IMG/VR virus record: IMGVR_UViG_3300032322_001315 | Span: 26,510-90,509 of that record | Direction: 5' to 3' (one strand) | DNA: 64,000 nt | Origin: a virus | In this document: positions 2,293-64,000 of the stretch, piece by piece | How positions within the stretch are numbered: the first letter of the stretch is position 1 | Layout: the number at the start of each line of letters is the position of its first letter | The notes under the pieces: model-generated | Database searches by the model: none | What the model was told of the DNA's origin: nothing | Seen by the model: the letters and a program-made list of their open reading frames with translations, nothing else | Translations under genes and position numbers: made by a program

Positions 2293-3563
2293 TGCTTAAA
2301 CACCTTTTCAATATACGAAAGAACCTTATCGTTATAAAGAGGAGAACAACCAATAAAAAATACGTTACTCAATGCGAGATTTGAATTTGGATATTTTTCA
2401 TGATTATCCAAATGTTTGAATCCAGGATGCAATAAAATATTTCCTGCAAAATAGTTTCTTGTTTGAATTTTATTATTCTCAAGATACTGAACTAGTTTTT
2501 CTTTAAGTTCTTGAGTTTCGCAATATACAGGAACACCAAACCAAGAAGGATCCGCACCTTCTGTATTAGGAATAACTCTCGCACCAGGAACGTTAGTCTC
2601 AATGTATGAATGAATGATGTTCTTATATTCTCTTCGTTTGCTTTCCAGCATATCGAATTTCTTCAATTGTTCAAGACCAATGGCGCCTTGCAAATCAAGA
2701 GGTTTTAGATTGTATCCGATATTTGTAAAGACATACTTGTGGTCAATCGTTCCATTATAATCTGCTAACCATTGGTCAAATCTGTTACCGCAAGTGCCGC
2801 ATTGCAGAAGGTTATTTGCTCCAATGCAATAGCAGTCTCTACCCCACCAAGAAATGCTTCTTGCTTCTTTCATGAAGTTTTCATCATTGCTGCAAACCAT
2901 ACCGCCTTCTCCAGTAGAAATATGGTGTGCTGGATAGAAAGAAGTTGTCCATGCATAATACAAGTCGGTAATCTGTTCTCCTTTCCACAGAGTTCCTAGA
3001 GAATCGCAGTTGTCTCCAAGGAGAACCAAATTATGCTTCTTGCAAATCTCTACAATCTTATCCATATCTGGAGGATTGCCAAGAACGGGAGAAACGAAAA
3101 TTGCTTTTGTTCTGAAGTTAATATTCTTTTCAATCAAATCAACATCAAAATTCAAAGAGTTCAACTCGATATCGATGAATACTGGTCTGAGTCCGTTTTG
3201 TACAATAGGTGCAATTGTAGTGGGAAAACCTACTGGAGAAACAATAATTTCATCATCATCTCTCCAACCAAATACCTTCTTCGCAGCAGTTACCAATACG
3301 AGATTAGCAGAACTACCAGAATTTACCATGTGAGAATGTTTCACATTAAAACGTCTGCTAAACATTTGTTGAAATCTTGCTACCTTATCGCCTGCTGTAA
3401 TCCAAGAACCGTTAAGCAATGTATCAAGAGCAGCATACATCTCCTTTTCGTCCCAGAGTTGTCCAGAGTATTGTACAAAATCTCCTTCTTGATAGTTGTC
3501 ATAATTTTTGACATACTTTGGTTGTAGTTTTGAGAGAGATTCAATCATTTCTTTTGTGTTCAT
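2280..3563 (-). CDS. RfbH/E1-type Fe-S sugar 3-dehydrase (DegT aminotransferase fold)
   Basis: 427 residues, DegT/DnrJ/EryC1 fold. The PLP-lysine position is histidine (SFYPAHHISTGEGG, H213), as in CDP-6-deoxy-hexulose 3-dehydrase (E1, RfbH/DdhC) and ColD, which keep PMP free instead of forming a Schiff base. Cysteines C186, C244, C246 and C255 (plus C258) reproduce the E1 [2Fe-2S] pattern C-X57-C-X-C with a last gap of eight rather than seven. This distinguishes it from ColD, which lacks the cluster. The expected role is C3 deoxygenation of a CDP-4-keto-6-deoxyhexose, on the way to 3,6-dideoxyhexoses. The usual partner reductase (E3) is not in this window. It overlaps the epimerase gene downstream and abuts the DUF5672 gene upstream. 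Confidence 0.88.
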   Translation of the reverse strand: MNTKEMIESLSKLQPKYVKNYDNYQEGDFVQYSGQLWDEKEMYAALDTLLNGSWITAGDKVARFQQMFSRRFNVKHSHMVNSGSSANLVLVTAAKKVFGWRDDDEIIVSPVGFPTTIAPIVQNGLRPVFIDIELNSLNFDVDLIEKNINFRTKAIFVSPVLGNPPDMDKIVEICKKHNLVLLGDNCDSLGTLWKGEQITDLYYAWTTSFYPAHHISTGEGGMVCSNDENFMKEARSISWWGRDCYCIGANNLLQCGTCGNRFDQWLADYNGTIDHKYVFTNIGYNLKPLDLQGAIGLEQLKKFDMLESKRREYKNIIHSYIETNVPGARVIPNTEGADPSWFGVPVYCETQELKEKLVQYLENNKIQTRNYFAGNILLHPGFKHLDNHEKYPNSNLALSNVFFIGCSPLYNDKVLSYIEKVFKQWKQ

Positions 3564-27743: not shown

Positions 27744-29333
27744 TTACGGTTTGTAAAAGATGAACACCGGTTCATACTTTAACCACATATCTGCACCTTT
27801 TTCATTTTTGACTTTGCAAAAATTCTTTGCTTTAGGTAGACCAGTTTCACTATCTACTCTATTACCTCCAGGCATTTGTGCTAGAGACATTTTCAGTTTG
27901 CCTTTGTATTCCATACCTAATGATTCAAGAATCTTTCTGCTATCTTCTTCAAGAGGAAGCATGTCGCCTCCGAACACAGCATCAGCAATATTCCAAAGAA
28001 GATAACGGTCATGGCGTAACCATTCAACAGCAGTTTCAAGGGTTGGGCGTAAAAATCCTTCACGCCATTCTTCATACTGTCCAAACTTTTTATATGATTG
28101 AGTAGGGTCTTCCGAATATGCTTCTTTTGCGAAGTATGGTGGGGAAGTAAATACGAGGTCGAGTTTGCCTCTAAACTTCTGAAACTCTTCATTGTTTCGG
28201 ATTACCTCCGAACCAAGTTGGAAAATCTTTGTTTCTGTATGTGAATATTCGTCTGCCCACAGACCCCCTTTGTCTACCGTCTGTCTATAAAAGTCAGCGA
28301 TTTCATCGTATTTTGTGCGTCCATCAGAAGTGTTGTGGTCAGTATTAGGATCAGTCCCAATATAAAAGATATGACGGTCATCACGAACAGACATGGCACC
28401 AAGAAGACGACCACTCCACCCCGAAGAAGGATCGTAAATATGAATAGTGGGTTGGTTTTTAATGTGTTCAGTAAATCGTTCATAGAGGTATTTAGCAGTT
28501 AGTGGAGGAAAATTTACAGCATATTGACAAAACGAAACTCTGAATGCCTTTAGACCAACAGGAAAAAGTTTTTGTCCAAACTTAAAAGGACGAATAGCAT
28601 AATATTCTGACTTATTATAGTCAACATTTGTACGACTCTTTTGTGATACGTTAAGTGCTTCAATGTCACTTTTATGAATCGTTAAATATTTTGCATTTCT
28701 TAGTTCTTCACTATATCCGGTATATTCAGCATCTAGTTCTTTTGGTTGCAACCAATAATCATATTCTCCACGTTGTCTAAACTTTTCTTCAAACTCTTTT
28801 ACCCACGTTGCTCCATCTGATACAACGGGAAGTTGGTTGTAGTATGTTTTGTCGTTTGCTTTGGCAACGTGTGAGTAGTGATAAAAAGAATCACGCTTAA
28901 AATGACGACTAGCGTAAGTGATGAATGTTTCAAGTAATTCTTCCTTTGCAAAATAATCATAGATAGACTTACCATCATCTTTCTTTGTGTAATTGATGCG
29001 AGTCTTCATCATAGTAGGAAACCATTGATTGACTGCATTACCAATTACACTAGTATTACGAATAACATCTTTTTCTCCTGTGAGTTCATCTACACACTCA
29101 AACTCATGAACAGGAAAACTTTCCATTTGATTAAATTGGTCAATAATGCCTTGCTTATCAAAACCTACACGAGGAGGAAGATTCTTGTTGTCCCAAAGGT
29201 CAACAATAGTCTTCCTCAAATCAATTACCCATTGACGAAATTCGTCTTTCGTCATCCATAGAATCTCTTCAAATGTCTTATTGACAGAAGATTCTAGTAA
29301 CTCACGATTTCTTTCATAATACCATTGTGTCAT
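27744..29333 (-). CDS. DNA methyltransferase, SPPY type (second)
   Basis: 529 residues. The SAM motif DPSSGWSGR (301-309) and catalytic FTSPPYF with SPPY at 397-400 define an N4C/N6A-type methyltransferase. About 250 N-terminal residues precede the core and include the segment FAKEELLETFITYASRHF. It has the same order as the enzyme at 10125-11393, and both share FTSPPYFAxExY. It stands alone without a nuclease partner. The next gene downstream of the stop is promoter-separated. Upstream it is joined to a 2OG-Fe(II) oxygenase gene by a 4-bp overlap, which suggests that the two act together. Confidence 0.87.
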   Translation of the reverse strand: MTQWYYERNRELLESSVNKTFEEILWMTKDEFRQWVIDLRKTIVDLWDNKNLPPRVGFDKQGIIDQFNQMESFPVHEFECVDELTGEKDVIRNTSVIGNAVNQWFPTMMKTRINYTKKDDGKSIYDYFAKEELLETFITYASRHFKRDSFYHYSHVAKANDKTYYNQLPVVSDGATWVKEFEEKFRQRGEYDYWLQPKELDAEYTGYSEELRNAKYLTIHKSDIEALNVSQKSRTNVDYNKSEYYAIRPFKFGQKLFPVGLKAFRVSFCQYAVNFPPLTAKYLYERFTEHIKNQPTIHIYDPSSGWSGRLLGAMSVRDDRHIFYIGTDPNTDHNTSDGRTKYDEIADFYRQTVDKGGLWADEYSHTETKIFQLGSEVIRNNEEFQKFRGKLDLVFTSPPYFAKEAYSEDPTQSYKKFGQYEEWREGFLRPTLETAVEWLRHDRYLLWNIADAVFGGDMLPLEEDSRKILESLGMEYKGKLKMSLAQMPGGNRVDSETGLPKAKNFCKVKNEKGADMWLKYEPVFIFYKP

Positions 29334-30472
29334 GATAAAATATACTCTCTCAAGTTTTCATTTGTAATAACATCAATAACGAGATGAATTCTTTTTTCAT
29401 CACCATTGTTTACTACCATGTGAGGTTTGCGTGTGTCTAAAAACCAACACTCACCAACTTTCATGTTTACTTCTTTTCTGTTTCCGTTTGGTTCCCATAC
29501 CACAAATTCAACTTTGTCGTTGGTAACAATAGGAAAGTGCAGGCGAGCAAGTTTACCGATAGAACCGCCTGAATCAGGGTCGACCTGGTCGGTGTGTCTA
29601 CTGAGTTCACCACCACCAGGAGCAAGAGACATAAAGCGGATCCGATGTATGCCTTGTAATTCAAACCGTCTGATGAGTTCATCGACTTCTGGAAAATCTT
29701 TTCGAAGATGCGTATCCTGCAATTCAAAATGTTCATCTTTGTGCTCCTCTTTCCATTTATCATTCATCTCAATTGGTTTTTCAATCCTCATTATATCTGG
29801 AGTATAACCTCTCAATGAGATTGCTGACCAAGACTTACCTTTGTTGTAATTGCTGTAATGATTTTGAAATTCAATGTTTAGTGATTCCAATTTAGTTTTA
29901 ATAGAGTTTATAAGATTAGAATCTACATCACAGATTTTTGTGATTGCAACATTATGTGTTGCATCAATATTCGTGTGTTCTCGGGGAAACAACGCATTCT
30001 TTTCATCTTTAAAGTATACACCAAAAATTTCACCAAAAGAGGTAATCTTGCTACCTACTTTGATAAAGTGTTTTTCGATGATACTTTTTGTTGCAACATC
30101 TTCTTCCCAAATAAACAACCATACTGCATTCTTTTGATTGATGTGGATGTTCTCACAAAAATTTTCAATGAACTTATCTGTTCCTCTGAGATTTGTGATA
30201 ACAATATCGCCTTTTTCTTTTGTGCCTATTACCACATCTTGATACATTGTAATAGGTTTTCTGACTTTTGTCAAGCGATATGTGTAAGAACCTTCGTTCT
30301 CAAAAACAATCTTGCCTTCGTGTAAGTCTTGTGCTATGTTGTTTTTCTTGTATGCAGTAAACGGAGATAGACTGTACTTATTATAATTTTCGTAAAGTTT
30401 TTCTATCGATTTCAGATAATCAAGTTCGTACCCGTGTTGCCATGGCTTTTGTTGCTTTTCTAAATCTTGCAT
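29330..30472 (-). CDS. 2OG-Fe(II) oxygenase (aspartyl/asparaginyl hydroxylase-like) with N-terminal extra domain
   Basis: 380 residues. The C-terminal half (about 270-370) has H293-T-D295, RLHFPIV, then WFLDTRKPH351 and R361 in RIHLVID: the iron triad H-x-D...H and the 2-oxoglutarate-binding arginine of the aspartyl/asparaginyl beta-hydroxylase family. The N-terminal ~165 residues look like a separate alpha/beta domain (VWLFIWEEDVATKS, KVGSKITSFGEIFGVYF), weakly GNAT-like by eye. Coupled to the methyltransferase downstream. Substrate could be protein or a modified nucleobase; this is inference. Confidence 0.82.
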   Translation of the reverse strand: MQDLEKQQKPWQHGYELDYLKSIEKLYENYNKYSLSPFTAYKKNNIAQDLHEGKIVFENEGSYTYRLTKVRKPITMYQDVVIGTKEKGDIVITNLRGTDKFIENFCENIHINQKNAVWLFIWEEDVATKSIIEKHFIKVGSKITSFGEIFGVYFKDEKNALFPREHTNIDATHNVAITKICDVDSNLINSIKTKLESLNIEFQNHYSNYNKGKSWSAISLRGYTPDIMRIEKPIEMNDKWKEEHKDEHFELQDTHLRKDFPEVDELIRRFELQGIHRIRFMSLAPGGGELSRHTDQVDPDSGGSIGKLARLHFPIVTNDKVEFVVWEPNGNRKEVNMKVGECWFLDTRKPHMVVNNGDEKRIHLVIDVITNENLREYILS

Positions 30473-50186: not shown

Positions 50187-51179
50187 TCAATATTCCGTTA
50201 TCGTAGTTGTAATCGTATAATTTGAATTTGGTAAAGCGTCTTTTGGAACAACTGCTGTATTGACAGTTGCCATTCTCACGTTAGCACCGATAACGTTTAA
50301 TAATATATGTTCAGCACCAGAACTTACTCCATACAAATAGGTATTTGTTTTTAAATCGCCTTCAATATTTGTTACTTTCAAAATATTTGTAGTGTTGCTG
50401 TAACTTAAAACTTCTGCTTTTCCTGATGCTAAAGCAAATGAATATCCTTGAAATACTTCTTCTCCAATTTTATACGTTCCTGTACCAGAAGAACTTACGT
50501 TTAATGATACAGTATCTTGTGCACCAATATTTGCTAAATTTTTAATATTGACAATTGCTTGTTTGATTACTGAACCTTGATTGATGTTTCCGTACAAATA
50601 TGCTTTTGCAGTAAACTTTAATGTCCAAATAATTATTCTTGTATCAGAATCATTTTCGCCTTCAAATTCAATATTACAATCTACACTATTTAATGTTATA
50701 GGAACTTCTCTGACAACTCCCATCGTAGGCACAAGATTTAACCTAAGAGTATAATTCGGAGTAAAATAAGGCAATATATGTTCAATTATTTGGTCACCAT
50801 CTTCAATGTTTCTAACATAAAGATATAATTCAAAATCAAAATTATAAGGTACTGGATTATATTGATAGTATGCTGTATTTCCATCGCCTGAGGCTGCAAC
50901 GTTCTTTATTCCAGATACTAGTTTTCTTGCCGCATCGTAGTACATATTTGTCAAATCGTATGACAAACGAGGTAATGTGATTTGAACTTTTTTGTTTAGT
51001 GTTGGATCACCTAAAAGACGATTTACATATTTTTCTTTTGGTGCATATACGATAGGAACTTTTATTGTTTGGTCTTCAGTACCGTTTGTATTATATCTTG
51101 TTAAACTGATATCATCAAATACGCTGCCGAACCCAACAATTAATTTTCTTATAATGTGGTGATATGATGTACTCGCCAT
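50187..51179 (-). CDS. 15: Tail completion / sheath terminator protein (gp15)
   Basis: 330 residues (T4: 272). IRKLIVGFGSVFDDISLTRYNTNGTEDQTIKVPIVYAPKEKY and LPRLSYDLTNMYYDAARK, YNPVPYNFDFELYLYVRN, QIIEHILPYF match T4 gp15. The extra C-terminal beta segment (~60 residues) is typical for marine relatives. It caps the tail for head joining. It overlaps the gp14-like gene by one base. Confidence 0.93.
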   Translation of the reverse strand: MASTSYHHIIRKLIVGFGSVFDDISLTRYNTNGTEDQTIKVPIVYAPKEKYVNRLLGDPTLNKKVQITLPRLSYDLTNMYYDAARKLVSGIKNVAASGDGNTAYYQYNPVPYNFDFELYLYVRNIEDGDQIIEHILPYFTPNYTLRLNLVPTMGVVREVPITLNSVDCNIEFEGENDSDTRIIIWTLKFTAKAYLYGNINQGSVIKQAIVNIKNLANIGAQDTVSLNVSSSGTGTYKIGEEVFQGYSFALASGKAEVLSYSNTTNILKVTNIEGDLKTNTYLYGVSSGAEHILLNVIGANVRMATVNTAVVPKDALPNSNYTITTTITEY

Positions 51180-52060
51180 TATAACTTACCTAAAGAATTA
51201 TTTTCTGAAGTATTGACATAATTGATTGATTCATCATTGATTGCTTTGTTGTCGTAATGTACTTTTGGTTCTGCTTCAAAATACGAGTCGGTAGAAACTA
51301 AAATCGCATTTGCAGTATTACTATAAATCCTAGAACCAATAGACAAGGTTCCTTGTATTTGGTCTAAATCAAGAGTGCTATTTACTGAGTTATATGCTGC
51401 CACTACTGCTCTAGATGTTGCATTTGCATATACACCATTAGCACTTTGAAATACAATATCATCGACATCAAATGTTCCATAAACAGAAGTGATTGTAAAT
51501 CTTTCTGCATATGCTTCTTGAGTTTGAATGATATCGATATCTGGTATTCCTGTTGAAATTTCTTCGTGAGAATACTTGAATTTCTCTAATTCAATCTCAT
51601 AAAAATAAGGAACTTGACGACCAAGCATCATCATATCTTTGTTTTGATTTACAAATTTGATTTCATATAATTCACCAACACCATTCAATACAGGAATATA
51701 AATTAAATCGCCTTCTCTTGGTCTTATAATTGTTGTTCCATTTGATACTCTCTGTAGGAATGTTCTTTTTGACATCATTACAGATAAAGTGTTTCTAATT
51801 TCTAAACCAAATTTACTGAAAAACTCTCCTTGACCACCATAATCGGTGACGTTATTCGGATAAATTTCAATTGGATATGCTGAAGTAAAAGTCTTTAGAG
51901 GGTCTTCACCATAGATTAAATCTCTCGCCGAGTCATTGTCGTTTGGTAGATAAAATGAATCTGTACCCATTATCTTAATACTTTCGACAATGAGGTCTTC
52001 AACTAAACGTTGTTCATTATATCTAGCGTTATAATTATTAAAATAGTGATTTAATGGCAT
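51179..52060 (-). CDS. 14: Neck protein (gp14)
   Basis: 293 residues. MPLNHYFNNYNARYNEQRLVEDLIVESIKIMGTDSFYLP is the conserved T4 gp14 start; QGEFFSKFGLEIRNTLSVMMSKRTF and FYEIELEKFKYSHE also match. The C-terminal ~100 residues (SVYGTFDVDDIVFQ...) form an extra beta domain. Joins gp13 in the head-tail connector. One base overlaps gp15 and 1 bp separates it from gp13. Confidence 0.92.
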   Translation of the reverse strand: MPLNHYFNNYNARYNEQRLVEDLIVESIKIMGTDSFYLPNDNDSARDLIYGEDPLKTFTSAYPIEIYPNNVTDYGGQGEFFSKFGLEIRNTLSVMMSKRTFLQRVSNGTTIIRPREGDLIYIPVLNGVGELYEIKFVNQNKDMMMLGRQVPYFYEIELEKFKYSHEEISTGIPDIDIIQTQEAYAERFTITSVYGTFDVDDIVFQSANGVYANATSRAVVAAYNSVNSTLDLDQIQGTLSIGSRIYSNTANAILVSTDSYFEAEPKVHYDNKAINDESINYVNTSENNSLGKL

Positions 52061-52061
52061 A

Positions 52062-52841
52062 TTAGTTTAAGAAAAATTCTAATGGAGCACCGTAGTTATT
52101 TTCCATTTCTTTTTCTAGTCTCTCGATGTCATCTACTGCTTCTTGATATGTTTCGGCACCATTTAAAGTTACACCACCAAGAAGTTGAATTCCACCAAAC
52201 TTCTTCATGTTTGAACCCCATGTACGTTTGATTAGAGCAGTAGCATATTCTTTTAACCAACGGTCATTCCAAACGCCATTATAAACATCTGGATTTATTA
52301 CAGCATAGCATTCTGCAACGACTACAGTTCCGGCATCTGCTTCTGATGTTCCCCAGTTCCAATCAATGAATAACTTACGCATATGTCGTTGAAATCTAAT
52401 TGGAACTTCACCACTAAACAAGATTTCAAGTGAACGCAGATGTTGCTGAGTTAATGTGTAGTTGATGTACGATGCTGAAGTGAAATCATATAATTCATTG
52501 AGACGTAGTTGATATCTCAAGTCAAACATATTGACGGTTGCTTGAGAATCTTGGACTGGAAATATGCGAGTTACACCAATAATCTCTACTTGATTACCGT
52601 TTGAGTCTACGGTAACGCTAGGATCCATATTAATATATTCATTATCGATATCTTGTTGTGTTATTGCTTTGATATAGAATACTTTTTGTAGACCATCAAA
52701 GTGATAATCTTGCCAGTATTGCAAAGCATCGTCTATTCTATCTTCTATTTGGTCATCATCTACGTTGATATCTATTACTGGAAATCCTAAACGGCGTAAG
52801 CAATAGTTTTTAAACTCTTCTCTTGAGGATATGGTCGCCAT
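52062..52841 (-). CDS. 13: Neck protein (gp13)
   Basis: 259 residues. FKNYCLRRLGFPVIDINVDDDQIEDRIDDALQYWQDYHFDG is the conserved T4-like gp13 start, and MRKLFIDWNWGTSEADAGTVVVAECYAVINP and WLKEYATALIKRTWGSNMKKFGGIQLLGGVTLNGAE continue the pattern. T4 gp13 has 309 residues. It is at the head of the neck-terminase operon with a late promoter before it. Confidence 0.95.
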   Translation of the reverse strand: MATISSREEFKNYCLRRLGFPVIDINVDDDQIEDRIDDALQYWQDYHFDGLQKVFYIKAITQQDIDNEYINMDPSVTVDSNGNQVEIIGVTRIFPVQDSQATVNMFDLRYQLRLNELYDFTSASYINYTLTQQHLRSLEILFSGEVPIRFQRHMRKLFIDWNWGTSEADAGTVVVAECYAVINPDVYNGVWNDRWLKEYATALIKRTWGSNMKKFGGIQLLGGVTLNGAETYQEAVDDIERLEKEMENNYGAPLEFFLN

Positions 52842-53324: not shown

Positions 53325-54680
53325 CTACTTGATTGCTTCTACTCTAAAGTTTTTGCCCATATGACTTCCTTGTTGAGGTAGAATTTGAATATCTTTAAAT
53401 CCAATTTCTGTTAGCAATTCGGTCATAACCTTTGGATAATAACCCCATCTGTGTGGGAATTTAGTTCCTTCTTTTAGTGTTTCTTCAGTTGGAGTTTCTT
53501 CACCTGTTGCTACTCCATACATGCAAACAGTCAACCAATATTTTTCTTCGTCTGTTTTCGCTTCTACGAATGCCTTGCATATACCTTCCAAGTCAGGTAA
53601 CTCCATGATAAGTTTACCACCAGGTTTGAGATTATCAAACCATTTCTTCATCAGTTCGGGACCTCGATGATGAGGAATATGTTCAATCAAATGAGATGCC
53701 AAAATCTCTTCTGCACACTCATTTGGAATATCAACTTCAAAAATATCTTCATTGATATCTGCTGTACTATCATACTTGTCAATACCAATGTATCCTTCGA
53801 GTTTGTCTCTACCGCAACCTATGTTAAACTTGATAGGTTTATTTTCCTCTAGATATTTTTGAATTTTATTTTTTGAACTGTTGCTACCTTTTGGTACTCT
53901 ACTTGTCCATCTCTTGTCAATATATTCTTTATCTTCTGGTACTAATGGAGTTGTGATTGGAATCTGAGTGAAATAATTTCTCAAATCAACACCAGGATGT
54001 GCTGTGTATTTTCCAGATGCAAGGTCCATGTGTAGACATTGAACATCAGTATTGACAAGAAGTTTATAACCCATCTTATGAAGTCTGTGGACAAAGAAGT
54101 TGTCTTCTCCAATAAATGGAATGTCAGGACTAATGTTATTGCCTATACAGCAGAAAGGAAGTTCTGGGTCTTGTTCTTTCATTGCTTTAATAATATGCAT
54201 AGGAATCAACATTACATCCATTCCTGTCTGCCAGGCGTCTATCAATTGGCCTGGATCGACATTAGGAATGATAATATGATTATCGATTCTCTGCATAATC
54301 ATAGCATTTGAAAGTTTGATATAGTACACCCCGGTTACTACTGCATTTGGATTTTCTTCTGCGGTCTTGTGAAGAATGGTGAATGCATCGTAAGGAAGAA
54401 CCGTATCTTCACCTACAAACAACATATACTTGGCGCCAGATTCTAATGCTCTTTCAAATAGATAGTTTCTTGCTACGTCAACTACCTCACCACCAATATT
54501 GCAGAAACCATGACTGAATCCATTAAGGTCAATATGAAGACCCATATGTCCATCAAAGTTTTGTGCTGGTGTTTCTTTTAAATCTCTACGAGGTTGACAG
54601 ATAACAACATACGGAGAGATTGTTTTTGATTCATCATAAATTTCATGCATTACTTTAATAATTTTATCACGATTATACAT
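53325..54680 (-). CDS. Fusion of glycosyltransferase-like and SAM methyltransferase domains
   Basis: 451 residues. The N-terminal ~260 residues form a GT-A-type domain (SGAKYMLFVGEDTVLPYDA gives the acidic EDT site, then VVTGVYYIK and DIPFIGEDNFFVHRLHKMGYKLLV). The C-terminal ~180 form a class I SAM methyltransferase: FNIGCGRDKLEGYIGID binds SAM, ASHLIEHIPHHRGPELMKKWFDNLKPGGKLI follows. It lies between the fibre genes and gp13, suggesting glycan decoration of virion or fibre proteins, but target is unknown. The two domains may have separate activities. Confidence 0.8.
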   Translation of the reverse strand: MYNRDKIIKVMHEIYDESKTISPYVVICQPRRDLKETPAQNFDGHMGLHIDLNGFSHGFCNIGGEVVDVARNYLFERALESGAKYMLFVGEDTVLPYDAFTILHKTAEENPNAVVTGVYYIKLSNAMIMQRIDNHIIIPNVDPGQLIDAWQTGMDVMLIPMHIIKAMKEQDPELPFCCIGNNISPDIPFIGEDNFFVHRLHKMGYKLLVNTDVQCLHMDLASGKYTAHPGVDLRNYFTQIPITTPLVPEDKEYIDKRWTSRVPKGSNSSKNKIQKYLEENKPIKFNIGCGRDKLEGYIGIDKYDSTADINEDIFEVDIPNECAEEILASHLIEHIPHHRGPELMKKWFDNLKPGGKLIMELPDLEGICKAFVEAKTDEEKYWLTVCMYGVATGEETPTEETLKEGTKFPHRWGYYPKVMTELLTEIGFKDIQILPQQGSHMGKNFRVEAIK

Positions 54681-54694
54681 ATTTCAATTCACCT

Positions 54695-56476
54695 TTAATA
54701 TTTGTTAAGAAATTGACTAGAACACAATCCTTTGCTAAAGAGTACACCTGTATTTAGGGTTATTTTTTGACCTCTGTTTGCACCATAAGGTACAAAATTA
54801 ATATCTCCATTTGGTGATAAAATACCTCCATTGTGTGCACCGGTAGATGTTGTATAAACCAAACTATATGTTGATACCACTCCATCAGCAGATATTTTTT
54901 GTCCTACAGTAGCTTGTGCTGGTATAAAATGTATATCACCATCGGGTGCTAATACACCACCGGCATATGCAGCAGTTGTTGTATAAACCAAACTATATGT
55001 TGATACTACTCCAGCTGCGGATATTTTTTGACCTACTATTGCACTTCTGGGTACAAAATGAATATCACCGTTTGGTGCTAAAACACCACCTTGATATGCT
55101 AATTCGGAAGATATAGTATATACTAGACTATATGTTGATACCAAACCGCCAGCTGAAACTTTTTGACCTCTGTTAGCAGCAGCCGGTATAAAGTGTATAT
55201 CACCATTTAGTGCCAATACTGCACCTAAAAATGCATTAGTTGTAGTATAAACCAAACTATATGTTGATACTACGCCAGCAGGTGAAACTTTTTGTCCTCT
55301 GTTTGCACTAAGGGGAGCAAAATGTGTATCCCCATTGGGAGCGAGAACGCCTCCTTGATATGCTGCTGCTGTTGTATAAACCAAACTATAGGTGGATACT
55401 ACTCCTGAAGCAGATATCCTTTGACCTCTGTTTGCACTATAAGGTACGAAATTTATATCACCATTAGGTGCTAATACGCCACCGGCATATGCATTAGTTG
55501 TCGTATATACAAGACTATATGTAGAAACAGTACCAGCAGATGATATTTTTTGTCCTCTTATAGCAGAAGTTGGTATAAAATGTATATCTCCGTTTGGTGC
55601 TAGGACACCACCCGTATATGCTGCTGCTGCTGTATAAACTAAACTATATGTACTAACAACACCACCAACACCACTAAACAACTGACTACCATTCTTTCCC
55701 TCATTCAAAAAATTTAGAATGTTAGGAAAAGGATTAAAGTTGGATGTTTTAGCATCACCGTTAACTGTTATAGTAAACTTGTTTGTGCTGTTGTCTAAGA
55801 ATGTTGCATTTTGACAGGTCAGCAGAGAGATGTTGGTGATTGCGGTAAGTGGCGCAGTTGGTGGCGTAAAAGTCGAGGTGTAGAGGACAGTACCTTTGAC
55901 GATGCGAAGATTTGATATATATCCGGGGAAATTGTATTGGTTGGCAGCACCACCTCTATCTGTCCATCCAACAAGCAATGCTCTTGACCCAGTGGTTAAA
56001 TTTGAAGGTACATTTGAAACAGTTGCGCTTGATACCCCATTCAACCAAAGTGTTGCATTTGCTCCACTTCTGGTTAGCGCAAAATGATTCCAAGAATTTA
56101 CTGCTACTGTAGTTGTTGTTCTTGCCGACGAAGGTGGGTTTACGCCTGCATTTGGCACAGCAGCAAAGTGAAAGCAGACACGCAAACTAGAATCAACGCC
56201 AATAGAATATTGCGACCAAGTGCTAAACGCAAGACCATCTTTATCAACAATAACTGCCCCATATATATCTGCATTTGTTGGGGTTGCTGTTAAATAGAAG
56301 AAACCTTCAATAGTAAAATCAGAAGTACCCATATTAAGAGCAGCATTATTAGCAACGCTTAAATAGTCGCCAGCAGCATCGAAAAAAACCGAAGAATACC
56401 CACCTTGTTGCGTACTGCGAACAGTTTGTTGAACTTCAGAGATGAATGTTGGAGAAGATATTCTTACGTCTGGCAT
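54695..56476 (-). CDS. LamG-domain protein with seven beta-propeller-like repeats, receptor-binding candidate
   Basis: 593 residues. Residues ~30-230 form a concanavalin/LamG fold (SVFFDAAGDYLSVANNAALNMGTSDFTIEGFFYL). Seven 43-residue repeats follow, each with VSTYSLVYT, GGVLAPNGDIHF and GQKIS, which agrees with a seven-bladed propeller. The extreme N-terminus (SSPTFISEVQQ) and C-terminus (CSSQFLNKY) recur in the next two genes, presumably for docking and tip. It is downstream of the long fibre gene and probably recognises host glycans. Two genes of the same type precede it in tandem. Confidence 0.8.
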   Translation of the reverse strand: MPDVRISSPTFISEVQQTVRSTQQGGYSSVFFDAAGDYLSVANNAALNMGTSDFTIEGFFYLTATPTNADIYGAVIVDKDGLAFSTWSQYSIGVDSSLRVCFHFAAVPNAGVNPPSSARTTTTVAVNSWNHFALTRSGANATLWLNGVSSATVSNVPSNLTTGSRALLVGWTDRGGAANQYNFPGYISNLRIVKGTVLYTSTFTPPTAPLTAITNISLLTCQNATFLDNSTNKFTITVNGDAKTSNFNPFPNILNFLNEGKNGSQLFSGVGGVVSTYSLVYTAAAAYTGGVLAPNGDIHFIPTSAIRGQKISSAGTVSTYSLVYTTTNAYAGGVLAPNGDINFVPYSANRGQRISASGVVSTYSLVYTTAAAYQGGVLAPNGDTHFAPLSANRGQKVSPAGVVSTYSLVYTTTNAFLGAVLALNGDIHFIPAAANRGQKVSAGGLVSTYSLVYTISSELAYQGGVLAPNGDIHFVPRSAIVGQKISAAGVVSTYSLVYTTTAAYAGGVLAPDGDIHFIPAQATVGQKISADGVVSTYSLVYTTSTGAHNGGILSPNGDINFVPYGANRGQKITLNTGVLFSKGLCSSQFLNKY

Positions 56477-58560
56477 AATTAGAACTTATTAAAAAATGGA
56501 GACATACAAACAGATTGATTAAACGGTATTGCTGGGAGAGTTGATATTTTTTGACCTACTGGGGCAGTTTGCATCATAAAATGTATGTCTCCATTTGGTG
56601 CTAGAACACCGCCTCTATATGCTTGAGTTGATGTATAAACCAGACTATATGTTGATACCACTCCTGAAGCAGATATCTTTTGTCCTACAGTAGCAGCCCC
56701 CGGCACAAAATGTATGTCTCCATTTGGTGCTAGAACCCCGCCTCTATATGCAATAGTTGTTGTATATACAAGACTATATGTGCTTACGACACCTGATGGT
56801 GATATTTTTTGTCCTACAGTAGCAGATGCCGGTATAAAATGAATATCACCATTAGGTGCCAGTACTCCGCCAAAATATGCACCAGTTGTTGTATAAACTA
56901 GACTATATGTTGATACTACTCCAGCAGCAGATATCTTTTGTACTACGGGGGCATCTTGAGGCACAAAATGAATATCACCATTTGGTGCCAATACTCCACC
57001 AAAATATGAACCAGCAGTATAAACCAAACTATATGTTGATACCACTCCTGAAGCAGATATCTTTTGTCCTACAGTAGCAGAGGCCGGTATAAAATGAATA
57101 TCACCATTTGGTGCTAAAACACCTCCTAGATATGCACCAGTTGTAGTATAGACCAGACTATATGTAGATACTACACCAGCAGCAGATATCTTTTGACCTA
57201 CTATTGCAGTTTGTGGTACAAAATGTATGTCTCCATTTGGTGCTAGAACCCCGCCTCTATATGCAGTAGTTGCTGTATATACAAGACTATATGTTGAAAC
57301 TACACCAGCAGCAGATATCTTTTGCCCTACAGCAGCAGATGCCGGTATAAAATGAATATCACCATTTGGTGCCAGTACTCCGCCAAAATATGCAGTAGTT
57401 GTTGTATATACAAGACTATATGTACTGACTATTCCGTTATTAAAAGTTTGTCCTGCAGCAACACTTTTATCAATCAAACCTTTCATACCAAAGAACCATG
57501 AATATGCAGTATTTGCAGTATCCATAGAACTATTATCAGCAGTAATAAGATTACCCCAAGCTCTTGTTTGAGTTTCCGTTATCCAGGTTGGGGAAATATT
57601 GTTTATTGGCATAATTATAATTTATTAAAATATGATGAACAACAAGTTCCAATTTCAAAAGGAATCGCTGAATTAGTATGTATTATTTGACCCCTGTTTG
57701 CATTGTGTGGTATAAAATGAATATCACCATTTGGTGCTAAAACGCCGCCAGCATAAGCACTGGTGGTCGTATAAACTAGACTGTATGTTGATACCACTCC
57801 AGAAGCAGATATCTTTTGTCCTCTAATGACAACAAACGGAATAAAATGTATATCACCATTAGGAGATAATACACCACCAACATAAGCACTGGTGGTCGTA
57901 TAAACCAAACTATATGTTGATACCACTCCAGAAGCAGATATCTTTTGTCCTCTGTTTGCAACATATGGTATAAAATGAATATCACCATTAGGAGATAATA
58001 CACCACCAATATATGCACCGGTGGTCGTATAAACCAAACTATATGTTGATACAACACCAGTAGCAGATATTTTTTGTCCTACAGTAGCAGATGCCGGTAT
58101 AAAATGAATATCACCATTAGGAGATAATACACCACCGGCATATGCAGCAGTTGTTGTATAAACCAAACTATATGTTGATACAACACCAGTAGCAGATATT
58201 TTTTGTCCTACAGTAGCAGATGCCGGTATAAAATGAATATCACCATTAGGAGATAATACACCACCAATATAAGCTCCGGTGGCCGTATAAACCAAACTAT
58301 ATGTTGATACAACACCAGTAGCAGATATCTTTTGTCCTCTGTTTGCACTATATGGTATAAAGTGAATATCACCATTAGGAGATAATACACCACCGTTATA
58401 AGCACTGGTGGTCGTATAAACCAAACTATATGTTGATACAACACCAGTAGCAGATATCTTTTGTCCTCTGTTTGCACTATATGGTATAAAGTGAATATCA
58501 CCATTAGGTGCCAGTACTCCGCCAAAATATGCACCAGTTGTTGTATAAACTAGACTATAT
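54750..58560 (-). repeat. Coding tandem repeats, 129-bp unit in three genes
   Basis: Twenty-one in-frame units of about 129 bp (7 + 7 + 7) encode the 43-residue blades; several are nearly identical at DNA level both within and between genes. Variation is focused on the same positions in each unit (after SLVYT, and after HFxP). Confidence 0.9.
56479..57612 (-). CDS. Seven-repeat beta-propeller-like tail protein, paralogue
   Basis: 377 residues. A short N-terminal domain of ~60 residues (ISPTWITETQTRAWGNLITADNSSMD) precedes seven 43-residue repeats (one is 42) with VSTYSLVYT, GGVLAPNGDIHF and GQKIS motifs. The C-terminus reads SPFFNKF, the same pattern as the neighbours. It lacks the LamG domain. 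Separated by 2 bp from each neighbour. A seven-bladed propeller is inferred from exactly seven repeats; receptor or glycan binding is a second inference. Confidence 0.78.
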   Translation of the reverse strand: MPINNISPTWITETQTRAWGNLITADNSSMDTANTAYSWFFGMKGLIDKSVAAGQTFNNGIVSTYSLVYTTTTAYFGGVLAPNGDIHFIPASAAVGQKISAAGVVSTYSLVYTATTAYRGGVLAPNGDIHFVPQTAIVGQKISAAGVVSTYSLVYTTTGAYLGGVLAPNGDIHFIPASATVGQKISASGVVSTYSLVYTAGSYFGGVLAPNGDIHFVPQDAPVVQKISAAGVVSTYSLVYTTTGAYFGGVLAPNGDIHFIPASATVGQKISPSGVVSTYSLVYTTTIAYRGGVLAPNGDIHFVPGAATVGQKISASGVVSTYSLVYTSTQAYRGGVLAPNGDIHFMMQTAPVGQKISTLPAIPFNQSVCMSPFFNKF

Positions 58561-58757
58561 GTTGATACTACCGTGCTGTCATTGACTGAACTGTATGTTG
58601 TTCCACTTTCTAAACTGCGTTGAAGCACTCTCTGTAATTTATACCATGCAGTCAAGTCTGTGCTTATAGAACTATTATCTGATATGGGTAATGTACCATA
58701 AACTGATTGAGTAACATCACTCTGCCATGATGGTGATATAATCCACGTATTTGCCAT
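57615..58757 (-). CDS. Seven-repeat beta-propeller-like tail protein, paralogue
   Basis: 380 residues. N-terminal ~65 residues (IISPSWQSDVTQSVYGTLPISDNSS) resemble those of the gene at 56479-57612. Seven repeats of 43 residues with very similar DNA (several blades nearly identical) follow. The C-terminal CCSSYFNKL matches the tail peptide of the other two. It is the first of the three in transcription order and follows the long fibre by 3 bp. The near-identical blades suggest recent expansion or recombination. Confidence 0.78.
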   Translation of the reverse strand: MANTWIISPSWQSDVTQSVYGTLPISDNSSISTDLTAWYKLQRVLQRSLESGTTYSSVNDSTVVSTYSLVYTTTGAYFGGVLAPNGDIHFIPYSANRGQKISATGVVSTYSLVYTTTSAYNGGVLSPNGDIHFIPYSANRGQKISATGVVSTYSLVYTATGAYIGGVLSPNGDIHFIPASATVGQKISATGVVSTYSLVYTTTAAYAGGVLSPNGDIHFIPASATVGQKISATGVVSTYSLVYTTTGAYIGGVLSPNGDIHFIPYVANRGQKISASGVVSTYSLVYTTTSAYVGGVLSPNGDIHFIPFVVIRGQKISASGVVSTYSLVYTTTSAYAGGVLAPNGDIHFIPHNANRGQIIHTNSAIPFEIGTCCSSYFNKL

Positions 58758-58760
58758 TAA

Positions 58761-61700
58761 TTAAAATCCAATTACTTGAATATTGTATTGATTCGCTGTA
58801 GGTGCTGTAGCAAATATAATGTTCGCACTATTATTATCTATTTTATCTACATCAGGATAAACAAAATATCCAGATGAATTTTCTATTGTATTAATAATAA
58901 CAAACGTTTTATTTAGATTGTGTGTGACAATAAAAGAAGTATTTGTGGTATCTCCTACATTTGCAGAAAATGTTGATGCTCCACTTCCACTTGCGGATAC
59001 TGTTGTATTAACAACGTTTGTTATTCTGCCGTTAGCTGCTACTGTTATTACTGGAATTGTTGTTGAGTTTCCATAAGTTCCAGCAGATACGGATACGTTA
59101 GTTACATCAGTATTTGCTTGATTATATGCTGCTTGAGCAAAAGTATTGATTGCAGTAATGCTAGTGTTTTGGTTTTGATTTACTGACTGTAATGCAGATA
59201 TATCGCCATTTGCTAACGTACTATATGTTTGTAATGCAATTATGTTTCCATTAGCAAGAGTGGAATAAGTCTGAAGTGCAACAGTATTACCACTAGCATT
59301 GTTTGCTTGGTTGTATGCTGCCTGTGCTAACAATGTAGCGCCACTTCCACTGGCACTATTTGCTTGATTATATGCTGCTTGAGCAAATGTATTAACTGCT
59401 GTTATATTAGTATTTAATGTTGATACTTGTGCTTGTAGTGCGATTATATTACCATTTGCTAATGTTGAATATGTTTGTAATGCAATTATATTTCCATTAG
59501 CAAGAGTGGAATATGTTTGTAGTGCAACAGTATTACCACTAGCATTGTTTGCTTGATTATATCCTGCTTGTGCTAGTGTATTAATTGCTGTTATATTGGT
59601 GTTTTGAGTTTGATTTACTGTTTGAAGTGCGGCTATATTTCCGTTAGCAAGAGTAGAATATGTCTGTAATGCAATTATGTTGCCGTTTGCTAATGTGCTA
59701 TATGTTTGTAGTGCAACAGTATTGCCACTAGCATTGTTTGCTTGATTATATCCTGCTTGTGCTAATGTATTAATTGCTGTTATATTAGTATTCTGTGTTG
59801 TATTAACTGCTTGTAGTGCAACAGTATTACCACTGGCGTTATTGGCAGCAGTATAAGCAGCACTTGCTAATGTAGATGCGCCATTTGCTTGGTTATATGC
59901 ACTATAGGAGAAGGTATTGACTGCTGCAACGTTAGCATTTAATGTTAATACTTGTGACTGAAGTGCTATTATATTGCCGTTTGAACGGGTAGAATATGTT
60001 TGTAAAGCAACAGTATTACCACTAGCATTATTTGCTTGTGCATATGCTGCTATACCGACTGGTTCTGATGTTAGAACTAAAGTGCCACCAGAATAAACAG
60101 CACCAGCATATACGTTACCAACCACACCAACCCCACCTCTCACTTGTAGAGAACCGGTTGTTGTTGACGTACTTGTGTTTGTTGTTTTAATTATAACTGT
60201 ATTTGCTGAAGTGATTCTCATCACTTCATTTTGCGTATTCAGACCACCGGTAGTAAATATAACGTCATTCATCAATCCGGTACCAACAATCATATTACCA
60301 CCACCAGTGGTTGTATTACCAGTAGCAAATAGGTAACCATCATTTTTACCTATCAAACTATATCCTGAATAGTTGTATGTGCTTGACCCCATACCTAGGT
60401 CTACGAAACCATCATTTGGAGTTCCATTATCTGCTGTAATAAACAAATCAGATGACGAGTTTTGACCCGAATTAATGTTCTGCATATTCAAACCAGAATA
60501 ACCATTAAAGTTACTACTGGCTTGGAATACTATTTGTGGTTCTAGCAAATATCCTGTAGGTATACCAGCATACAATGCATTGAATCCATTAGCAGCATAA
60601 CCAAAGAATTGTCCAGTATTTCCTGATATGACGGTTGATGTTGCATTACCTATAAATGAAATATTTCCCGTAACCGTTAGGTCATTTTGGATTGTCACGG
60701 GTCCAGATATTGTTCCGCCAGAAGAATTGAATTTTGTATTTGCTGTATTATATGCTGCTTGAGTAAAGGTATTAACTGCTGTTATATTGGTATTCTGTGT
60801 TGTATTAACTGCTTGAAGAGCAACAGTATTACCACTAGCATTATTTGCTTGAGTATACGCAGCAGATGCCAATGATGATGCACCATTTGCTTGGTTATAA
60901 GCGCTATAGGAGAAGGTATTGACTGCTGCAACATTGGCATTTAATGTTAATACTTGTGACTGAAGTGCTATTATATTGCCGTTTGAACGGGTAGAATATG
61001 TTTGAAGTGCGGCTATGTTACCATTTGCTAATGTTGAATATGTTTGTAAAGCAATTATGTTGCCGTTTGCTAATGTACTGTATGTTTGTAGTGCAACAGT
61101 ATTACCACTAGCATTATTTGCTTGTGTATATGAAGCACTTCCTAGTGATGAGGCACCATTTGCTTGATTATATGCACTATAGGAGAAGGTATTAACAGCG
61201 GCAATATTAGCATTTAAAGTTAATACTTGAGATTGTAAAGCAATTATATTACCATTTGAACGGGTAGAATATGTTTGAAGTGCGGCTATGTTACCATTTG
61301 CTAATGTTGAATATGTTTGTAAAGCAATTATGTTGCCGTTTGCTAATGTACTATATGTTTGCAATGCAACAGTATTACCACTAGCATTATTTGCTTGTGC
61401 ATATGCGGCAGATGCCAATGATGAGGCACCGTTTGCTTGGTTATAAGCACTATAAGAGAAGGTATTAACAGCAGCAACGTTAGCATTCAAGGTTAATACT
61501 TGAGACTGCAATGCTATTATGTTACCATTTGAACGGGTAGAATATGTTTGTAAAGCAACAGTATTACCACTAGCATTATTTGCTTGAGTATAAGCAGCAC
61601 TCGCTAACGATGAAGAACCATTTGCTTGATTGTATGCACTATAAGAAAAGGTATTAACAGCAGCAATGTTAGCGTTCAAGGTTAATACTTGAGACTGCAA

Positions 61701-64000
61701 TGCTATTATGTTACCATTGGATAATGTTGAGTAGTTTTGCAATGCTACCGTATTACCACTAGCATTATTTGCTTGTGCATATGCGGCAGATGCTAATGCA
61801 GATGCGCCGTTTGCTAAGATTCTTGCTGTTGAATCTATCGCCGCACCACCAGCGGCAGTTGTTTGAGTTGTTCCGTCAGCGAATGTAATACCTAATCCAG
61901 AACCTTGTGTTATGGTTATACCACCATAACTAGGTACTGTTAATATACCAGAATCGGTTAGATTAAAAATGTTTGTTGTGTAAGCAGAATTTATAATCTG
62001 AAACTGGCCAGTAGAATCTAATCTAAACCATTTACTTGTATTTGCTGAACCAGAACTTTGATTGTTTGCTTGTAAGAAATCAATATATCCAATGCCACCT
62101 TTAGTATCAGAGCCAGAAACAACTAAAGCTGCATTTTGTGAACCAGCAAAACCAGTATAATTTAATGTAGTTAAACCATTTACAGCAAAAGTATTGTTCG
62201 ATGAATAAAATTGTAGATTACTTACATTACTCAAATATCCCGCTGAGTTTGCAAAGATAACAGAGTTTTCAAGATACCCAGATGATGAACCTCCACCACC
62301 ACTTACTGCTGCTGTGGTGATGCTTGATATTCTACCATTAGATGCAACAGTAATTACAGGAACTAGTGTTGAACTACCATAAGTTCCAGGTGTAGTAGAT
62401 ATGTTTGTTACATCAGTATTTGCTTTGTCAAACGATGCTTGTGTAAATGTATTAACTGCTGTTATATTGCTGTTTGTGGTAGTCATCTGAGACTGAAGAG
62501 CAACAGTATTACCACCAGCATTATTAGCGGCAGTATAAGCAGCAGATGCCAATGATGATGCACCGTTTGCTTGATTATACGCACTATAGGAGAAGGTATT
62601 AACTGCTGCGATATTAGCATTTAAAGTTAATACTTGAGATTGTAAAGCAATTATATTTCCATTAGCAAGAGTAGAATATGTTTGCAATGCGATTATATTG
62701 CCGTTTGCTAATGTGGAATATGTTTGTAGTGCTACGGTATTACCACGAGCATTATTTGCAGCAGCATAAGCAGCACTTGCCAATGCTGATGCACCATTAG
62801 ATGAATTATAAGCACTATAGGAGAAGGTATTAACAGCAGCAACGTTAGCATTTAAAGTTAATACTTGAGACTGAAGTGCAATTATGTTACCGTTTGATAG
62901 TGTGTTATACGTTTGAAGTGCAATTATATTACCGTTAGCAAGAGTAGAATATGTTTGTAATGCAATTATATTACCATTTGCTAATGTGCTGTACGTTTGT
63001 AATGCAACAGTATTTGCTGCTACCGTATTTGCTCTATCAAATGCTGCTTGTGCTACATCAATAACTTTTATACCAGAATCATATATCCCACCAGCATACA
63101 CATTACCAACTACACCAACCCCACCTTTTACTTGCAATGCACCTGTGGTCGTTGATGTGCTTGTGTTTGTTGTTTTAATTATAACTGTATTTGCTGAAGT
63201 GATTCTCATCACTTCATTTTGTGTATTGATGCCACCAGTAGCAAATATAACATCGTTCATTAATCCTGTGGCAACAATCATGTTACCACCACCGGTAATT
63301 GTATTACCAGTAGCAAATAGGTAACCATCATTTTTACCTATCAAACTATATCCTGGATAGTTGTATGTACTTGAACCCATACCCAAATCTACGAAACCAT
63401 CATTTGGAGTTCCGTTATCTGCTGTAACAAATATGTCTGAAGAAGAATTCTGTCCAGAATTAATGTTCTGCATATTCAAACCAGAATAACCATTAAAGTT
63501 ACTGCTAATTTGAAATACAATTTGAGGTTCTAATAGATATCCTGTTGGTATTCCAGCATATAGAGCATTAAATCCATTTGCAGCATAACCAAAGAATTGT
63601 CCAGTATTTCCAGAAACAGTAACAGATGTGACGTTACCTGTAAAGGAAATATTTCCTGTGACAGTTAAGTCGCTTTGGATTGTTACAGGTCCAGATATTG
63701 TTCCACCAGAAGAATTAAATTTTGTATTTGCTGTATCATACGCTGCTTGAGCAAATGTATTAACTGCCGTTATGTTAGTGTTTTGAATATTGTTGACTGT
63801 TTGTAGTGCAACGGTATTGCCACTAGCATTATTTGCTTGATTATAAGCAGCACTTGCTAATGTTGATGCACCATTGGCAGAATTGTATGCACTATAGGAG
63901 AATGTATTAACAGCAGCAACGTTAGCGTTCAAGGTTAATACTTGTGCTTGAAGTGCAATTATATTACCATTAGCAAGAGTGGAGTATGTCTGGAGTGCTA
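58761..64000 (-). CDS. Very long repetitive tail-fibre protein (5' end outside window)
   Basis: The frame remains open to the right edge (the TTG at 63932 is internal), so at least ~1745 residues are visible. Most of it is made of repeats such as LASAAYTQANNASGNTVALQTYSTLANGNIIALQ and LTLNANVAAVNTFSYSAY, Ala/Asn-rich and probably a trimeric fibrous shaft. Two copies of a ~215-residue module (TISGPVTIQSDLTVTGNISF...) sit at about 63.1-63.7 and 60.1-60.7 kb. A unique module lies at 61.8-62.3 kb (SAGYLSNVSNLQFYSS, ITFADGTTQTTAAGG). The C-terminus ends in VTHNLNKTFVI...TANQYNIQVIGF, a common fibre terminus. The role is adsorption, probably together with the propeller proteins. Confidence 0.85.
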   Translation of the reverse strand, partial: ALQTYSTLANGNIIALQAQVLTLNANVAAVNTFSYSAYNSANGASTLASAAYNQANNASGNTVALQTVNNIQNTNITAVNTFAQAAYDTANTKFNSSGGTISGPVTIQSDLTVTGNISFTGNVTSVTVSGNTGQFFGYAANGFNALYAGIPTGYLLEPQIVFQISSNFNGYSGLNMQNINSGQNSSSDIFVTADNGTPNDGFVDLGMGSSTYNYPGYSLIGKNDGYLFATGNTITGGGNMIVATGLMNDVIFATGGINTQNEVMRITSANTVIIKTTNTSTSTTTGALQVKGGVGVVGNVYAGGIYDSGIKVIDVAQAAFDRANTVAANTVALQTYSTLANGNIIALQTYSTLANGNIIALQTYNTLSNGNIIALQSQVLTLNANVAAVNTFSYSAYNSSNGASALASAAYAAANNARGNTVALQTYSTLANGNIIALQTYSTLANGNIIALQSQVLTLNANIAAVNTFSYSAYNQANGASSLASAAYTAANNAGGNTVALQSQMTTTNSNITAVNTFTQASFDKANTDVTNISTTPGTYGSSTLVPVITVASNGRISSITTAAVSGGGGSSSGYLENSVIFANSAGYLSNVSNLQFYSSNNTFAVNGLTTLNYTGFAGSQNAALVVSGSDTKGGIGYIDFLQANNQSSGSANTSKWFRLDSTGQFQIINSAYTTNIFNLTDSGILTVPSYGGITITQGSGLGITFADGTTQTTAAGGAAIDSTARILANGASALASAAYAQANNASGNTVALQNYSTLSNGNIIALQSQVLTLNANIAAVNTFSYSAYNQANGSSSLASAAYTQANNASGNTVALQTYSTRSNGNIIALQSQVLTLNANVAAVNTFSYSAYNQANGASSLASAAYAQANNASGNTVALQTYSTLANGNIIALQTYSTLANGNIAALQTYSTRSNGNIIALQSQVLTLNANIAAVNTFSYSAYNQANGASSLGSASYTQANNASGNTVALQTYSTLANGNIIALQTYSTLANGNIAALQTYSTRSNGNIIALQSQVLTLNANVAAVNTFSYSAYNQANGASSLASAAYTQANNASGNTVALQAVNTTQNTNITAVNTFTQAAYNTANTKFNSSGGTISGPVTIQNDLTVTGNISFIGNATSTVISGNTGQFFGYAANGFNALYAGIPTGYLLEPQIVFQASSNFNGYSGLNMQNINSGQNSSSDLFITADNGTPNDGFVDLGMGSSTYNYSGYSLIGKNDGYLFATGNTTTGGGNMIVGTGLMNDVIFTTGGLNTQNEVMRITSANTVIIKTTNTSTSTTTGSLQVRGGVGVVGNVYAGAVYSGGTLVLTSEPVGIAAYAQANNASGNTVALQTYSTRSNGNIIALQSQVLTLNANVAAVNTFSYSAYNQANGASTLASAAYTAANNASGNTVALQAVNTTQNTNITAINTLAQAGYNQANNASGNTVALQTYSTLANGNIIALQTYSTLANGNIAALQTVNQTQNTNITAINTLAQAGYNQANNASGNTVALQTYSTLANGNIIALQTYSTLANGNIIALQAQVSTLNTNITAVNTFAQAAYNQANSASGSGATLLAQAAYNQANNASGNTVALQTYSTLANGNIIALQTYSTLANGDISALQSVNQNQNTSITAINTFAQAAYNQANTDVTNVSVSAGTYGNSTTIPVITVAANGRITNVVNTTVSASGSGASTFSANVGDTTNTSFIVTHNLNKTFVIINTIENSSGYFVYPDVDKIDNNSANIIFATAPTANQYNIQVIGF
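60090..63735 (-). repeat. Direct repeat pair of ~645 bp within the fibre gene
   Basis: The module at about 63090-63735 recurs at about 60105-60745 with high nucleotide identity, about 2985 bp apart, beginning in KFNSSGGTISGP and ending in VYAG-x-x-Y. Short 48-81-bp repeats fill the rest of the gene. Confidence 0.85.

Follow-up and report, generated by a model that had tools for sequence, protein, structure and literature searches.

What is the role of three adjacent genes, each encoding seven copies of nearly the same short repeat, in the genome of an uncultured phage? The genes are located in the stretch of DNA analysed here (the window, 64,000 nucleotides, bases 26510 to 90509 of a 90,509-bp IMG/VR contig), which also contains T4-type genes for portal, sheath, terminase, neck and DNA polymerase. 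They are transcribed in the order C, B, A (hereafter P1, P2 and P3) with intergenic gaps of 2 nt (Table 1). A first-pass annotation had described them as propellers of exactly seven 43-residue blades and had read the set as a multi-specific adhesin array feeding off one fibre.

Table 1. Positions of the propeller genes, their domains and the neighbouring genes in the window
Feature	Position	Strand	Evidence or remark
Putative fibre gene (fibre-like, long, repetitive, 1745 aa or more, 5' end beyond the contig)	58761-64000	minus	Directly upstream of P1
P1 (gene C), propeller gene, 380 aa	57615-58757	minus	Seven 43-aa blades; PF24684, E 9e-20
P1 propeller domain, aa 64-364	57666-58568	minus	Blade alignment; strands of the AlphaFold2 model
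P2 (gene B), propeller gene, 377 aa	56479-57612	minus	Seven blades; PF24684, E 3.7e-17
P2 propeller domain, aa 62-361	56530-57429	minus	Seven blades
P3 (gene A), propeller gene with LamG, 593 aa	54695-56476	minus	Seven blades; PF24684, E 2.5e-16
P3 LamG (Laminin_G_3) domain, aa 34-194	55895-56377	minus	PF13385, E 5.9e-16
P3 propeller domain, aa 274-576	54749-55657	minus	Seven blades
Cassette gene 4, glycosyltransferase-like with SAM methyltransferase, 451 aa	53325-54680	minus	PHROG glycosyltransferase, E 3.6e-7; C-terminal methyltransferase fold
Cassette gene 5 (X147), 147 aa	52873-53316	minus	After gene 4 in nearly all relatives
T4-type neck genes Ad2 and Hc2 (context)	51179-52841	minus	Downstream of the cassette in the lineage of the window

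The propeller genes and their predicted fold

Exactly seven repeats (VSTYSLVYT...) were counted directly in each of the three proteins, as the first-pass annotation had stated, while its blade length of exactly 43 residues holds for 19 of the 21 blades and fails for P3 blade 5 (45 residues) and P2 blade 4 (42 residues). The last blade of each protein merges into the C-terminal tail, and P3 blade 7 shows a shift of one residue. The earlier claims of shared terminal peptides and of LamG in one gene only were borne out as well: an N-terminal (I/S)SP(T/S)(W/F) and a C-terminal (F/L)NK(L/F/Y) peptide are common to P1, P2 and P3, and LamG was found in P3 alone among the three genes of the window. 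The LamG domain is not peculiar to this virus; at other loci, one or two genes of the triple repeatedly carry an additional domain. As judged from the sequences, the three-gene repeat pattern is not a product of chance or low complexity, because all three proteins match PF24684 (Vgb_lyase) above the gathering score and relatives are encoded by 106 to 149 stretches of the viral collection.

Structure prediction had been proposed earlier as a check on the fold. An AlphaFold2 model of P1, built from 40 sequences, is a seven-bladed propeller (mean pLDDT 86, about 92 in the propeller region) with four strands per repeat (D, blade positions 1–5; A, 14–19; B, 25–29; C, 35–38). In a Foldseek search with this model, the virginiamycin B lyase Vgb was the top PDB match (E 7.5e-21, target TM 0.87–0.90), and the Vgb structures 2qc5 and 2z2n were also matched by phmmer against PDB sequences. 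The first D strand of the model stands ahead of strands A, B and C of blade 1, and the ring would therefore have to close with the N-terminal strand in the last blade. Membership in PF24684 and the model together assign the three proteins to the closed seven-bladed propellers of the Vgb type as a predicted fold.

Vgb (PF24684; PDB 2qc5, 2z2n/o/p) is the best PDB match by both sequence and fold and likewise has seven blades of about 42 residues. The phage propellers differ from it in the loss of the catalytic His and Glu, in their nearly identical blades, in their location in a fibre cassette and in their three tandem copies. When the catalytic sites of Vgb were mapped via the phmmer alignment, blade position 15 corresponded to His228/His270 and position 29 to Glu284. 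Among 924 blades, position 15 is hypervariable and holds His in five, whereas position 29 is Pro in 841 and Glu in none, and no blade combines His and Glu. The face that bears the active site in Vgb is hence the most variable one here, with the catalytic residues lost. With the equivalents of His270 and Glu284 lost and an NCBIfam Vgb score of 66.2 bits against a cut-off of 600 bits, identity with the streptogramin lyase was rejected.

Blade number, the variable face and probable blade exchange

A scan of viral contigs yielded 74 loci, obtained with blade-derived peptides as queries that favour near relatives and under-sample distant ones. In the first scan, 184 of 198 complete open reading frames had seven blades and six had 14. 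When a broader blade profile was applied to all loci and exact duplicates were removed, seven blades were found in 174 of 190 distinct complete genes, 14 in four and 20 in one, equivalent to two or about three propellers. Most of the other deviating genes are pieces of split genes, such as those divided into four and three blades at L052, L062 and L182. An apparently frameshifted propeller gene was found at L047, one that stops prematurely and has five blades at L023, and six blades in gene 3 of L051. Seven blades are also present in the Cylindrospermopsis phage proteins CrV-01T gp012 and Cr-LKS4 g13 (about 36% identical), where, unlike in the triple, a single C-terminal propeller ends a protein of about 1140 aa. 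Repeat counts across these relatives thus show the blade number to be locked at seven or its multiples 14 and about 21. Neither of the two results named in advance as evidence against the first-pass annotation occurred: repeat number does not vary freely, and the predicted fold is a propeller.

The 924 aligned blades share a nearly invariant frame. Entropy reaches 2.8 to 3.8 bits at positions 10, 11, 12, 15, 30, 31 and 33, with means of 1.75 in the D-A loop, 3.78 at position 15 and 2.49 in the B-C loop, compared to 0.2–0.8 in the strands and the A-B loop and an intermediate 1.5 in the C-D loop. Insertions have the same distribution: 230 of 233 insertion-bearing cases fall into the D-A (190 blades) or the B-C loop (40), and three elsewhere. 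The D-A and B-C loops share one face when a blade has four antiparallel strands. Blade-connecting and internal loops form the top face of all propellers (PMC8916777). In this alignment, hypervariability was shown to be confined to the D-A and B-C loops, on what would be a single face. The variable positions coincide across all blades of the window, and the earlier claim that the blades vary at the same surface positions is strengthened by the larger set. There is strong coupling between the residue at position 33 and the choice of V or R at position 34 (N-R versus A/T/P/S-V); a fixed blade code was rejected, as this choice is not set by blade number. For within-genome blade pairs of 75–88% identity, pN/pS was about 1.2 at variable sites, which were picked from the same data (the nine most recent blade pairs give 0.65), and 0.1 elsewhere, a result that is a contrast in constraint and no proof of positive selection.

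For 169 of 513 blades, the nearest relative comes from the blade's own genome, compared to about 12 expected, while the blade with the same number in the same gene of another genome was nearest for 21 (28 expected, no enrichment). Shared codon use, which could raise within-genome similarity, was controlled for by permuting codons within genome and column (100 permutations). All permutations were exceeded within a gene in 11 and between genes in 6 of 42 genomes, and the genome of the window exceeds the control in both respects. The ends of the genes behave differently from the blades: in 108 of 126 cases, the C-terminal tail closest to a given one among the other genomes comes from a gene in the same position. 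The connector helix is position-specific too, and strongly so in the second lineage; in this computation L025 and L045 were assigned to the wrong lineage group, an error that should bear on the lineage averages alone. Direct evidence for the replacement or independent divergence of one propeller comes from L013 and L020, two near-identical phages whose sequences mostly agree at 96–100% identity in the 5.5 kb that follow gene 2. Gene 2 itself falls to 76–81% across the propeller and recovers at both ends, and gene 1 shows 90–93%. These patterns lead us to infer that recombination or gene conversion moves blade copies inside each gene and from one of the three genes to another. No reverse transcriptase (RVT_1), which would point to a diversity-generating retroelement, was found in the 90.5-kb contig, which is incomplete.

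The cassette in other phages

Three complete seven-bladed genes in tandem were found at 51 loci including the window, representing 44 distinct genomes; all close relatives are metagenomic, where assembly may collapse near-identical repeats, yet most blades are well under 95% identical. The genes of a triple are usually 1–11 nt apart. Whole-record searches of 16 contigs yielded three propeller matches in most of them. Three genes are not strictly required, since L031 carries two. In nearly all loci examined, the order is fibre-like gene, P1, P2, P3, glycosyltransferase (with methyltransferase) and X147. Propeller domains are thus encoded together with tail fibre-like genes in the window and in the cassettes of its relatives. 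The gene upstream of P1 was read as a putative fibre gene from its position and its PHROG matches: its C-terminal 78 aa match phrog_27448, as do the upstream genes of several relatives. Several of the upstream genes have further matches to PHROGs named head decoration or virion structural, which makes the location of the propellers on the virion uncertain.

Gene 4 comes next after P3 in nearly all relatives and is reduced to its glycosyltransferase half in some genomes. In a Foldseek search with its model, the methyltransferase part alone was supported. A viral scan with the gene 4 product of the window as sole query gave no match, a search of phage records with it just a weak methyltransferase match, and a PDB profile search with it and X147 no convincing relatives. 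Weak similarity to the C-terminal domain of X147 was found in the product of a P-SSP7 gene that lies four positions downstream of the tail fibre gene gp17.

The cassette is carried by phages with a T4-like portal and by a separate lineage of 60–63 kb. In the latter, a T4-like portal was found in none of seven records, and the cassette is flanked by genes of another tail type. By sequence comparison, the cassette was thereby shown to be common to unrelated phage lineages. No cellular relatives were confirmed in the search of genome contigs.

Probable function of the propellers and comparison with known systems

Host recognition is the likeliest function suggested by the variable face, the fixed ring, the fibre gene in series and the alleles swapped between close phages. 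The three proteins are probably paralogous receptor-binding propellers of the virion that are carried on a fibre and exchange blades, with the number fixed at seven. Each propeller would be attached through its short N-terminal region and the connector helix and produced in series with the upstream fibre gene. The variable face would bind a glycan or protein of the host surface; exchange of blade copies would give rise to new specificities, and ring closure would hold the count at seven. The three propellers might act jointly and could form a heterotrimeric head. The earlier reading as a multi-specific adhesin array is retained as the best one in this modified form, with the upstream fibre gene, the conserved cassette, the allele replacement and the lost catalytic residues pointing the same way.

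The fold of the propellers, the same as that of virginiamycin B lyase, also invites a reading as lyases or depolymerases whose substrate on the host surface would be cyclic or polymeric. With the His and Glu pair missing from all blades and 66 instead of 600 bits on the NCBIfam profile, this is very improbable; a catalytic site should moreover stay fixed, yet that face varies most. An enzyme was therefore rejected as the main explanation. Proteins that act during infection outside the virion, as decoys at the cell surface or as inhibitors of the host or of a competing phage, would fit the neighbouring glycosyltransferase/methyltransferase, which could act inside the host cell, but are hardly to be expected from genes that mostly follow one another at 1–11 nt, in a series with a fibre gene and, in the window, also with the neck genes. 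A structural or decorative role in a neck or head fibre (cf. T4 fibritin whiskers, capsid fibres), in which the propellers aid fibre assembly or make loose contact with polysaccharides and do not confer host specificity, draws on the adjoining neck genes Ad2 and Hc2 and on the upstream fibre C-termini matching a PHROG named head decoration. T4 carries gene 12 and wac at this place. Such a role is nevertheless unlikely, as a purely structural part needs no hypervariable face on an invariant frame, propeller replacement is seen between near-identical phages, and the cassette also occurs in phages lacking T4-like portal and neck.

A separate alternative concerns the origin of the blades. Recent tandem duplication with neutral variation and no ongoing exchange might account for their similarity; pN/pS near 1 at variable sites fits relaxed constraint, and in many genomes the permutation control is not exceeded. 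However, blades no longer keep their register from one genome to the next, whereas the ends of the genes retain their position identity, and replacement of a single propeller was directly seen, which makes duplication alone rather improbable.

With host recognition as the preferred function, the distinct ends and common blades suggest that each of the three proteins has its own place in a joint assembly. A 1:1:1 heterotrimer is a prediction by analogy, and separate homotrimers or neck or head fibres are possible arrangements as well. A more far-reaching proposal, put forward tentatively, is a repertoire that works without reverse transcriptase. In this proposal, three propellers with non-interchangeable ends would form one heterotrimeric head of 21 blades, blades would move among the genes under a count of seven enforced by ring closure, and the whole cassette, including the glycosyltransferase and the small partner protein, would be mobile between unrelated lineages.

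Receptor-binding propellers are already known from phages: phi11 gp45 and PRD1 P2 are five-bladed and PhiKZ gp131C is seven-bladed (PMC4901313). They resemble the present proteins in placing a propeller on a host-recognition protein, a role that is putative here. The gp45 homotrimer of phi11 arranges three propellers in a platform (PMC4901313) and provides a precedent for such an arrangement; it is encoded by one gene, whereas the present propellers come from three paralogous genes, their blades are homogenised and one face is hypervariable. The virophage DSLV2 likewise has a row of three related tail genes, conserved in its lineage as the triple is at the 51 loci (L031 being an exception), and their products are reported to assemble 1:1:1 into a heterotrimer and to bind to cells of cyanobacteria (PMC12724248). 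Its fold is a gp37-like needle instead of a propeller, and the heterotrimer is only predicted here. The pattern of variation itself parallels that of the NWD/hnwd WD40 receptors of Podospora anserina, whose repeats undergo concerted evolution and have their selected sites on the top face, in the d-a loop and the b-c turn (PMC1805685). Repeat exchange within and between family members (here, the permutation control was exceeded in a minority of genomes) and variable sites in the d-a and b-c loops are common to both systems. The Podospora proteins are fungal NLRs with WD40 repeats of unstable number (PMC2873952), whereas the phage proteins have Vgb-type blades fixed at seven.

A literature search found no conserved propeller triple with homogenised blades, fixed count and one hypervariable face. 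The triple was absent from all 50,697 phage records searched, and would thus mark an adhesin type common in environmental phages that are so far uncultured. It may represent a route to diversify host recognition without a retroelement, in parallel to the self/non-self receptors of fungi. The triple offers a test of how ring closure limits changes in repeat number, and its regular blade frame a natural binding scaffold for study.

Coupled blade positions and C-terminal tail of the propeller genes

Across the blades of all loci, position 34 of the aligned blade is nearly always V or R, which are equally common (418 and 417, respectively), and the residue found there is coupled to position 33 (N-R versus A/T/P/S-V). 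The C-termini of all propeller genes carry a near-invariant (F/L)NK(F/Y/L) tail, often preceded by C-x-S-(P/S), which is possibly a signal for assembly or docking. The same propeller fold was matched by collagen-repeat proteins of giant viruses (BFVD A0A1V0SG21 of Hokovirus and A0A1V0SKR9 of Klosneuvirus).

Variation in gene architecture among related phages

Genes with 14 and about 20 blades are found in relatives, i.e. two or three propellers in one protein. In three related contigs (L052, L062 and L182), the third propeller gene, P3, is split into separate ORFs, the first encoding four blades and a glycine-rich domain and the last the remaining three of seven blades; in L052, a separate sulfotransferase-like ORF lies between them. 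Either the gene end was displaced after domain replacement, or the propeller is formed by two chains. One or two of the three propeller genes in L037, L039, L065, L066 and L067 encode approximately 260 additional N-terminal residues; these give weak, propeller-type Pfam matches and are perhaps an extra divergent propeller. A glycine-rich domain is present in gene 3 of L068 and LamG in L051.

Coordinates of variant propeller genes and of further phage-encoded proteins
Feature	Location
Genes with 14 and about 20 blades	L060/L061:337-11104; L185:4650-13080
P3 split into separate ORFs	L052:11477-14183; L062:12257-14570; L182:8281-10568
Glycosyltransferase-like + methyltransferase protein	window 53325-54680
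DegT/DnrJ-type sugar aminotransferase	window 2280-3563
Asp/Asn beta-hydroxylase	window 29330-30472

Accompanying glycosyltransferase-like protein

Of the two halves of the glycosyltransferase-like and methyltransferase protein accompanying the propeller genes, both present in the window, some relatives retain the glycosyltransferase half alone. A possible role for this protein is modification of the fibre or of the host receptor.
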